Source of the DNA: Hypomesus transpacificus
Lineage: Eukaryota > Chordata > Actinopteri > Osmeriformes > Osmeridae
Length of the DNA stretch: 64,000 nt
Direction: 5' to 3'
Assembly (NCBI RefSeq): GCF_021917145.1
Contig: NC_061075.1
Coordinates: 7,215,240 to 7,279,239, forward strand
Part shown: piece by piece, positions 32,801 through 34,971 of the stretch
Layout of the letters: the number at the start of each line of letters is the position of its first letter
How positions within the stretch are numbered: the stretch's first letter is position 1
The notes under the pieces: model-generated
What the model saw: the letters and a program-made list of their open reading frames with translations, nothing else
What the model was told of the DNA's origin: nothing
Database searches by the model: none
Made by a program: the position numbers and the translations under genes

Positions 32801-34971
32801 GGGACAGAGAGGTTGATCCAAAAGCACCTGTCGTCACAGGGTGTGTCCACCTCCATGTATCCTCCGCAACACTTCACTGTGCCACGGCGTCGTTGAACAA
32901 ACACGCGTGTGTCTAAGTACCTGGCTTCCATCCAATACCATCAAAATGTTATTGTTTTCTTTTCGGGGTTGGTTGTGTTTATATAACCTTACCTGAACTG
33001 CCTATTAGATACTACTACAGCAGGACAGCGTCTGCTAAGGCTACAGCAGCAGCAGTACCCGGTACCTCCACAGGAGGGGCGTTCTCTCCGGCGCGGTCCC
33101 CAGGATCGGACGGGCCCAGTGCGGGGGAGGAGGAGGAGTGTGAGGGGGGCCCCGGAGGCTCCAGCCTGCCTGACTTCATGAAGGGAGTTCACGTCTTCTT
33201 CTACAACCTGGCTGCCTTGGAGCGGAAGAGGCTGGCTCGCTACCTGCTGTCATATCCTTCACCACAGCTGCCTGTGCTGGTATTTCGCTGGAAGGCTTCC
33301 TATCATATGTTTTTAAATCTAATCTCCGTAGATGAACATGGATTTACCCATGGATTTGTCCATGGGATGGGATTAGCTCAGTGGTAGAGCCTGCAGATCA
33401 AGAGGTTGCTGGTTCAAAACTCCCCCTGCACGTGACATTAGGATAAAAGCTTTCATCTTTTTATCTTCTTATTTTTTCTCTGTTTTTCTTTTTTATCTTT
33501 TCCTTTTTTGGTCATGATTGTTTTTGTAAAATGTTATTTGCCTTTTCTTGCTTTTTACCTGAATCATTTTGAGATTTTAGTTAATATAAAGTGCATTATA
33601 AATACTATTATTATTTTTTATTATTAAAAGCATCTGCTAAATTGAGTACATTCATTTATTAAACCCATGAAGCAGATGAGGGAGGGGGTGTATTTTGCAC
33701 CCAAATTAAACGTTTGAGGTCTGCTTGTTTCCTCTGGTCTTGAGAAGTCTGTTGTCTGCCTGCTCCTTAACCCTGGCCCACGTATGATGGCGAGGAGGAG
33801 GAGGTCATGAGTTCAGAGGTCACACACATTGTCGCCGAAGTGGAAAGTCCCATCCACTCACAGGTGAGTGGACTGTTGCTTGTATTTCGTTATGTTTTGA
33901 GTGATTATCTCCAGGGGCCAGTTGTTTAAAAAATGTAATCTGGATCAGAATTATCTGGATTTTGAAATCCCATGTTTGCTATCCAGGATCAGGTAATCCA
34001 TTTTACTTTTGTACTGGTTTTTCAAAGCAACATTGGATTGGATCACCCTGATCCAAATACAAACTTTTCAAGATGACCAAATCTGGATTCCAAGTGTTGT
34101 AAAAGACTACATACTACGTGTGTTTCAAAATCTGAAAAGGGCTAAATGTCCAATTAATAACTAAATTAAAGAACTTTCAAAGTTAGTCTTCGGTTGTGGA
34201 GAGACCATCTTTTTGATACTCTACTTTTTGGAGGCGGATCTCAAGTCTGGCTTTGGTTTGCTGAAGTTGGGAAAGAGTGATTTGTTCCTCTGCCAGAAGA
34301 ATCTGTACTTCTGCTCTTACATATAAATAAATGTATATGAATTACATGATACAAATATAGTTTTCTCTGACTAATTTAAAGTTTTATTACATTTTGTTGC
34401 TTAAATCCACCCTGAATCCACCCTTCTGCTGGGATCAGAATTATCTTGATTTTTGGGATCAAAGGTATCCCAATCCTACATTTTAAAGGTTTTGAACAAC
34501 ACATATTGAAGGTTTGATCCAGATCAAAACCAAGATTGCATTACGTGATGTAAATCAATTTTAAAATCCTTTTATTCGTTTTTGAACAACTCATTTTCAA
34601 GATTTGATCCAATCCAAAAGCGTAATCTGATCAGATCACTTCAACAACTGGCCCCAGAATGTTTGCACAAAGTCAAGTTGTGTAGCCCACTAGCCACAGG
34701 TACTGTGTACCCTAGCTTCAATGGTTATGTAGGCCTAATGTCACGATGCAGTTAGAATGATGAGGGTGATGATGTCGACTGGGGTGATAATGACTCTTAT
34801 GATGGGGGTGATGGTGATGAATATGCTGTCGGTTCCTCCTACTCCCAGGAGCTCAGGGAACTCATGCAGAGGTTTCCTCAGGCAATCCCCACACGCAAGT
34901 TGTGGCTGGACACCTGCTTCTCTAGGCAGAAGAACGTGGACCATCAACAATTTATGCATCTATTCAGTTAA
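23864..34971 (+). CDS. chd1l: Chd1l (ALC1), PAR-activated chromatin remodeller with macro and C-terminal BRCT domains
   Basis: Twenty-five exons: 23864-23957, 24713-24825, 24954-25060, 25600-25711, 25867-25898, 26004-26085, 26518-26680, 26977-27132, 27244-27336, 27630-27726, 27969-28042, 28408-28518, 29050-29164, 29338-29491, 29713-29881, 30078-30223, 30862-31025, 31180-31367, 31539-31637, 31877-31947, 32450-32564, 32748-32856, 33009-33251, 33782-33863, 34849-34971. Phase is continuous; 1003 aa. Snf2-type ATPase: motif [10 protein letters not shown] (59-67), DEAH (162-165), LLTGTPIQN (188-196), motif [13 protein letters not shown] (438-448). A basic linker (exon 17) and acidic run lead to a macro domain (about 702-855), which in human ALC1 binds poly(ADP-ribose) and autoinhibits the ATPase. 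Residues 908-1000 form a BRCT domain ([14 protein letters not shown]...WLDTC, W982-x3-C986) that the 897-aa human protein lacks. Intron 23 is AT-AC. A poly(A) signal AATAAA lies at 35017-35022, only about 45 bases after the stop. Confidence 0.97.
24198..24633. mobile_element. Foldback (palindromic) element in chd1l intron 1
   Basis: A perfect 26-bp inverted repeat bounds the segment: 24198-24223 against 24608-24633 (core ttcccccttccttgcgcg). A second inverted pair, tgtatattacagtctg at 24290-24305 against its complement at 24383-24398, is nested inside. No open frame. It resembles a small non-autonomous DNA transposon; no clear target-site duplication was seen, so the family is unknown. Confidence 0.5.
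26150..26515 (+). repeat. (CCCTGTCTCCCT)n low-complexity repeat filling chd1l intron 6
   Basis: Pyrimidine-rich array of ctccctccctgtctccctgt-type units running up to the acceptor of exon 7 (ag at 26516-26517). It also serves as the polypyrimidine tract. It contains no stop codon in the chd1l frame. Confidence 0.95.
27500..27614 (+). repeat. (CCCCT)n pentanucleotide array in chd1l intron 9
   Basis: About 22 perfect CCCCT units lie just before the acceptor of exon 10 (gggaag|gtgtgg at 27629/27630). They are the only pyrimidine tract near this acceptor. Confidence 0.97.
29900..29972 (-). repeat. tRNA-like sequence in chd1l intron 15
   Basis: On the minus strand the segment has box A-like TAGCTTAATGGTTAGAG, a CTCTCAC anticodon-arm-like part and box B-like GGGTTTGAATCCC, but the acceptor stem does not pair. 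It is therefore a tRNA pseudogene or SINE head rather than a functional tRNA gene. Confidence 0.4.
30239..30324. repeat. (CA)n microsatellites in chd1l intron 16
   Basis: Two CA runs separated by a short unique stretch, starting about 16 bases after the exon 16 donor. Confidence 0.95.
32036..32320. repeat. Probable dispersed repeat in chd1l intron 20
   Basis: Begins with (AATCAG)n followed by aatttggttttattcgcc, ends in AT-rich sequence with gtgcaagtaaggtgg. The opening resembles a repeat type I know as common in fish genomes. The family was not determined. Confidence 0.35.
33252..33781 (+). other. chd1l: AT-AC (U12-type) intron 23 of chd1l
   Basis: The donor is ATATCCTT (33252-33259), the U12 AT-AC consensus. 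TCCTTAAC (33764-33771) matches the U12 branch site and lies 10-12 bases from the terminal AC (33780-33781). Joining tc|g restores codon Ser936 and gives ...RYLLSYDGEEEE..., which continues the BRCT fold. No GT-AG pair gives an open frame, because an in-frame TAA lies upstream of the exon and there is no AG at the required place. The intron contains a tRNA-like SINE fragment (33366-33430). Confidence 0.88.
33366..33640 (+). repeat. tRNA-headed SINE-like repeat in chd1l intron 23
   Basis: tRNA-like head (gggattagctcagtggtaga and box B-like ggttcaaaactcc), a body rich in T, and an end containing aaagtgcattataaatacta, the kind of tail seen in fish SINEs. This is a different family from the other copies in the window. 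Confidence 0.5.
33914..34655. mobile_element. Non-autonomous DNA transposon with TIR ggggccagttgtt (chd1l intron 24)
   Basis: A perfect 13-bp terminal inverted repeat, 33914-33926 and 34643-34655, with further imperfect inverted similarity inward (ggatcagaattatc..., tgatccaatcc). On the minus strand 34320-34183 is open for 45 codons with a coiled-coil-like Glu/Gln/Leu pattern ([15 protein letters not shown]), resembling the C-terminal tail of the MYB/SANT-like accessory proteins of Harbinger-type elements. Length 742 bp. Family assignment is inference. Confidence 0.6.

Follow-up and report, generated by a model that had tools for sequence, protein, structure and literature searches.

A near-consensus AT-AC U12-type intron, next to a second probable minor intron, in the BRCT tail of chd1l of Hypomesus transpacificus

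The window, i.e., the whole 64,000-nucleotide stretch of Hypomesus transpacificus DNA analysed here (NC_061075.1, positions 7,215,240 to 7,279,239, forward strand), carries the chd1l (ALC1) gene (Table 1). Peptide anchors and splice choices scored by U2 and U12 matrices underlie the gene model; these matrices, as well as the U1 5' end and a U2 fragment, do not come from published files, and the AT-AC donor of intron 23 itself lay outside this scoring of splice choices. The model has 24 introns, all of them GT-AG except intron 23, and no internal stop. The Pfam scan listed SNF2 and Helicase_C but no macro family (E up to 0.01); a match to human CHD1L (7enn chain K) at E 8.5e-42 spans the macro region and residues beyond it. 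The 32-nt microexon of the model replaced an exon end at 25728, which had given a 998-aa protein (intron 25729-26003, U1 energy +0.7). At another site a U12 pair, 31380-31538, scored 11.2 with these matrices versus 8.7 for the U2 pair 31368-31538; the U2 pair, whose splicing encodes a 10-residue peptide, was kept.

Repeated sequences were also observed in the window. A long CT-rich repeat at about 26150-26510 (extent judged by eye), open in several frames, fills most of the chd1l intron 26086-26517, and four UnaL2 LINE 3' elements that pass the Rfam cut-off lie at 1435-1488 (+), 8200-8253 (-), 11788-11841 (+) and 20641-20694 (-).

Table 1. Features of chd1l in the window (positions counted from the first letter of the window).
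Feature	Position	Strand	Description
chd1l (ALC1) coding region	23864..34971	+	25 exons, 1003 aa: SNF2 ATPase, helicase C, macro region, C-terminal BRCT
Microexon	25867-25898	+	32 nt, between two GT-AG introns, easily missed
Intron 22, probable U12-type GT-AG (GTATCCTC ... TACCTGAAC)	32857..33008	+	152 nt, phase 2, branch A 11 nt from end
Exon 23	33009..33251	+	243 nt = 81 codons, phases 2/2; linker and first part of BRCT, flanked by both minor-type introns
Intron 23, AT-AC U12-type	33252..33781	+	530 nt, phase 2, splits codon Ser936 in BRCT
U12-type donor ATATCCTT	33252..33259	+	sole occurrence in window (both strands); rank 1/15405 [AG]T sites (matrix not from a published file)
U12-type branch site TCCTTAAC	33764..33771	+	candidate A residues 33769, 33770; sole occurrence in window (both strands)
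Exon 24	33782..33863	+	middle of BRCT
Exon 25	34849..34971	+	end of BRCT and stop codon

AT-AC introns of the U12 type have the donor consensus ATATCCTT and the branch-site consensus TCCTTRAC, and the lack of a distinct polypyrimidine tract is a trait of the U12-type class. The donor of intron 23 matches the AT-AC consensus in 8 of 8 positions and its branch site, TCCTTAAC, is likewise an exact match; the terminal AC occupies 33780-33781. The initial annotation had described this intron as a near-textbook AT-AC U12-type one by its donor, branch site and terminal dinucleotide; its coordinates proved exact, and both 8-mers are unique in the window. In scoring with U12 matrices, which it had proposed, the donor ranks first among the 15405 candidates and the acceptor served by TCCTTAAC second among the 16917 AG/AC sites (matrices not from published files). 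The pyrimidine share upstream of the acceptor, 0.71, does not set the intron apart from the others (range 0.47-0.94 among the introns listed). The two candidate branch A residues are 11 and 12 nt away from the last intron base, within the optimum of 11-13 nt given for the distance between branch and 3' splice site in U12-type introns (PMC3584512). The phase 2 of the intron also agrees with the bias of minor introns away from phase 0 described in PMC10639083. Inside the intron, 33360..33660 (+) is a dispersed repeat of two segments (about 33361-33450 and 33457-33635) with at least 41 matching places genome-wide, the window copy counted. A stretch near 33366-33420 looked tRNA-like by eye; no tRNA gene was called in the intron, and the stretch is repeat sequence.

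To estimate how often such signals arise by chance we ran first-order Markov simulations of 200 windows, each 64 kb long, and counted matches on either strand. A simulated window held on average 1.54 donors and 0.91 branch sites followed by AC 6-14 nt further on, and 0.04 pairs of donor and branch/AC less than 5 kb apart, with frame and position not yet required. Taken alone, the donor/branch pair is therefore uncommon as a product of chance, not impossible; its chance origin is unlikely because the pair also agrees with the reading frame and with the protein alignment.

This agreement was assessed by joining 1777 donor/acceptor pairs around the site (GT or GC with AG; AT with AC) and comparing the products with an XRCC1 BRCT sequence. 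The 33251/33782 junction gave the top score, 129. Two further AT-AC pairs, with donors that to the eye do not resemble U12 sites, came next with 115 and 111 (the latter shares the acceptor of intron 23), and the best GT-AG or GC-AG pair reached 108. The initial annotation was wrong in claiming that no other junction restores the frame: the full reading frame is kept by 119 of the 1777 pairs, 33252-33781 included, and thus frame alone does not single out 33251/33782. The split of Ser936 was placed correctly (in the 25-exon, 1003-aa model the intron separates the second and third bases of codon 936), and so was the recovery of the BRCT alignment, as the spliced, top-scoring peptide aligns to the XRCC1 BRCT without a gap at the join. 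Retention of the intron as coding sequence was rejected: the peptide scores 68 in the same comparison, runs into a stop at 33385 and matches none of the BRCT families (E up to 1).

One may ask whether the major spliceosome could instead use a GT-AG pair here, e.g., the donor at 33280 with an AG of the next exon (33794 or 33797), which would give a slightly altered BRCT. Such pairs are among those that keep the full frame, and the GT-AG junction near 33280 proposed earlier as an alternative is indeed in frame (donor CTG/GTATTT, intron end 33797). However, this junction scores 107 versus 129 and its acceptor falls in an exonic GAGGAG stretch. More generally, with GT-AG pairs the aligned YDGE core is replaced and the score drops from 129 to 108 or less, the acceptors 33794 and 33797 sit in GAGGAG repeats with no pyrimidine tract (scores -3.5 and -6.0, matrix not from a published file), and the exact U12 donor and branch site would have to be a coincidence. 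We therefore rejected a GT-AG or GC-AG junction as the main form, and find such splicing extremely improbable.

The domain completed at the 33251/33782 junction resembles the C-terminal BRCT of XRCC1, with which it has an LPDF start and a core alignment in common; this XRCC1 domain dimerises with the BRCT of LIG3. The spliced peptide matches four XRCC1 BRCT chains (3pc6, 3pc8, 1cdz and 3qvg) with E 3.1e-10 to 6.4e-10, and the best of these matches (E 3.1e-10) covers residues 2-93 of 98 with no gap at the junction. Pfam, in contrast, supports a BRCT weakly: LIG3_BRCT (PF16759; cut-off 27) is just passed by the separate domain with 27.2 bits and missed in the whole protein with 21.8, and PF00533 gave 16.5, under its cut-off of 21.3. 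Searches of the 437-Mb genome with PF00533 and PF16759, which see single exons, listed 8 matches and 1 match, respectively, none of them in chd1l. No second chd1l BRCT was found in the genome, as three of the four matches were chd1l itself and the fourth had E 5.23. Human CHD1L (7enn chain K) aligns gap-free with the fish protein to the end of the macro region and over the intron 22 junction; with 897 aa it ends 15 residues beyond the alignment, leaving no room for a BRCT.

The intron directly upstream, intron 22, carries U12-type signals as well, a finding that is new here and absent from the initial annotation. Its donor, CAT/GTATCCTC, matches the GT-AG U12 donor GTATCCTT in 7 of 8 positions and ranks third of 15405 (tied with 31707; matrix not from a published file). 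The branch-like TACCTGAAC is mediocre, with 7 of 9 positions identical to TTCCTTRAC, and three acceptors were tied in matrix scoring. Position 33008 was picked among them because of the branch distance and the alignment to human CHD1L, in which the junction peptide STSIYYYSR aligns gap-free to TYIYYFPR. As this acceptor ranks 397 of 16917 with the same matrices despite the high donor rank, the U12 class is probable for intron 22, not certain. Calculated pairing with U1 (5' end not from a published file) is weakest at introns 23 (+0.7) and 22 (-1.3), the other 22 of the 24 introns having -4.2 to -13.3 kcal/mol; duplex energies with U11 or U12 do not separate the intron classes. Thus, judging by its sequence signals, intron 22 is probably of the U12 type too, and exon 23 is enclosed by two minor-type introns.

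Components of the minor spliceosome were searched for in the same genome. One match over the Rfam cut-off was obtained for U12 (44 of 19507 first-look candidates scored), one for U11 (40 of 20810) and two loci for U4atac (49 of 11601). U6atac was not found among 46 of 24394 candidates scored, a search that does not show its absence. The U12, U11, U4atac and U6atac searches gave no match in 14 control genomes, the named ones of which are prokaryotes. The RNA strand of the U12 locus (reverse complement) carries GTAAGGAAAA; by inspection, its pairing with TCCTTAAC can leave a single A bulged.

The motifs, their spacing, the frame, the gain of a BRCT and the genes for U11, U12 and U4atac are all read from the sequence, and their best explanation is that 33252-33781 is a U12-type AT-AC intron of chd1l whose excision completes an XRCC1-like BRCT, intron 22 being probably of the U12 type as well; we hold this to be almost certainly correct. 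From these observations we infer that the minor spliceosome would act at the site and that the BRCT would depend on it. The donor ATATCCTT would be bound by U11 and the branch site TCCTTAAC by U12, with one A bulging out of the latter duplex 11-12 nt ahead of the intron end; excision would then join TC/G into Ser936 and complete a BRCT like that at the C-terminus of XRCC1. Since intron 22 is probably U12-type too, the minor spliceosome would have to act twice in succession for the full BRCT tail to be made. In donor, branch site, branch distance, terminal dinucleotides and phase 2, intron 23 is like the vertebrate U12-type AT-AC introns of the U12DB / IAOD class; it is mechanistically undistinctive within this class, but it comes directly after another probable minor intron. 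DNA-repair genes are one of the function classes enriched for U12-type introns (PMC3584512), and 22 percent of the zebrafish U12 introns are AT-AC (PMC7367187).

Splicing of this kind leaves room for another fate of the transcript, compatible with the minor-spliceosome reading: one or both minor introns may often be retained, or exon 23 skipped, so that much chd1l mRNA would lack a working BRCT and encode a protein near the mammalian length. Retention of intron 22 would bring a stop at 32894, just past the macro region, and retention of intron 23 the stop given above, while skipping of exon 23 keeps the reading frame; minor introns are moreover spliced less efficiently, as stated in PMC2952598. 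However, no sequence feature shows retention, transcripts that retain an intron would be expected to be liable to nonsense-mediated decay because junctions lie downstream, and in a review alternative splicing at U12-type introns is called almost entirely absent (PMC3584512). We consider frequent retention or skipping unlikely.

The initial annotation had also suggested looking for the same intron position in XRCC1. In this genome, the gene taken as XRCC1 on the basis of three exons with 59, 41 and 59 percent identity to an XRCC1 BRCT has two introns in its second BRCT, one in phase 2 at AATGG/GTAAGTG and one in phase 0 at GAAGAT/GTGAGA (locus L017, 393-581 and 658-1230). The outcome was negative, as the first of them (GTAAGTG...TTTTTTCCAG) looks U2-type and is found 3 codons further downstream than the AT-AC intron of chd1l. 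Each XRCC1 intron is in fact about 3 codons downstream of its chd1l counterpart (alignment with offsets taken by eye), the second one near a gap, and with a stricter gap cost the chd1l/XRCC1 alignment stops before the second intron. The LIG3 BRCT of this genome lies uncut in one exon or open frame. An intron position common to chd1l and XRCC1 or LIG3 was therefore rejected. It is conceivable that the BRCTs of XRCC1 and chd1l stem from one two-intron ancestor, and that the first intron is U12 in chd1l and U2 in XRCC1 after conversion and a 9-nt shift. In both BRCTs the first intron is of phase 2 and the second of phase 0, a pattern that the uncut LIG3 domain does not share; on the other side, the positions differ, the second intron is near a gap and beyond the reach of the stricter alignment, and two independent gains fit equally. 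Such an ancestor, and with it common descent of these introns with a change of class, seems to us doubtful, if a real possibility.

As to annotation, it had been supposed that the AT-AC intron could explain under-annotation of the BRCT. The CHD1L lengths tabulated in a review (PMC7934534) weaken this idea: zebrafish (NP_956607.1) 1026 aa, chicken 900, mouse 900, human 897, rat 926 and dog 918. With 1026 aa in zebrafish versus 897 in human, the fish tail is probably annotated already; the extra length of the zebrafish protein is compatible with the BRCT tail, which suggests that fish records already contain the BRCT. Our search of published papers did not turn up the intron, nor a paper joining CHD1L with a minor or U12-type intron, or with a BRCT domain and zebrafish; passages of two of the 14 papers that name both CHD1L and BRCT describe no BRCT in CHD1L.

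The intron class, the mechanism and the gene are already known, and the AT-AC intron of chd1l is a good but ordinary new example. The more unusual part of the finding is that two neighbouring probable minor introns surround one exon. Minor introns cluster in genes beyond chance in each of the 21 genomes analysed in PMC7367187. Here, chd1l is similar to the known cases in having more than one minor-type intron; in contrast to general clustering, its two introns adjoin and enclose a single 81-codon exon of matching phase. If spliced as read, chd1l would link a DNA-repair chromatin remodeller to the minor spliceosome, and it would be a clean gene for testing the definition of neighbouring minor introns.

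It may even be that in fish the whole Chd1l BRCT depends on two successive minor introns, so that the minor spliceosome decides whether the BRCT is present, with a possible tie to LIG3/XRCC1 repair complexes; this wider idea is speculative and we regard it as improbable. Were it true, failure at the first intron would truncate the protein behind the macro region, a state that the mammalian protein has reached in evolution. By length, the BRCT tail is seemingly missing from human, mouse and chicken CHD1L (897, 900 and 900 aa). Studies in mammals may therefore overlook a surface through which the fish protein interacts.
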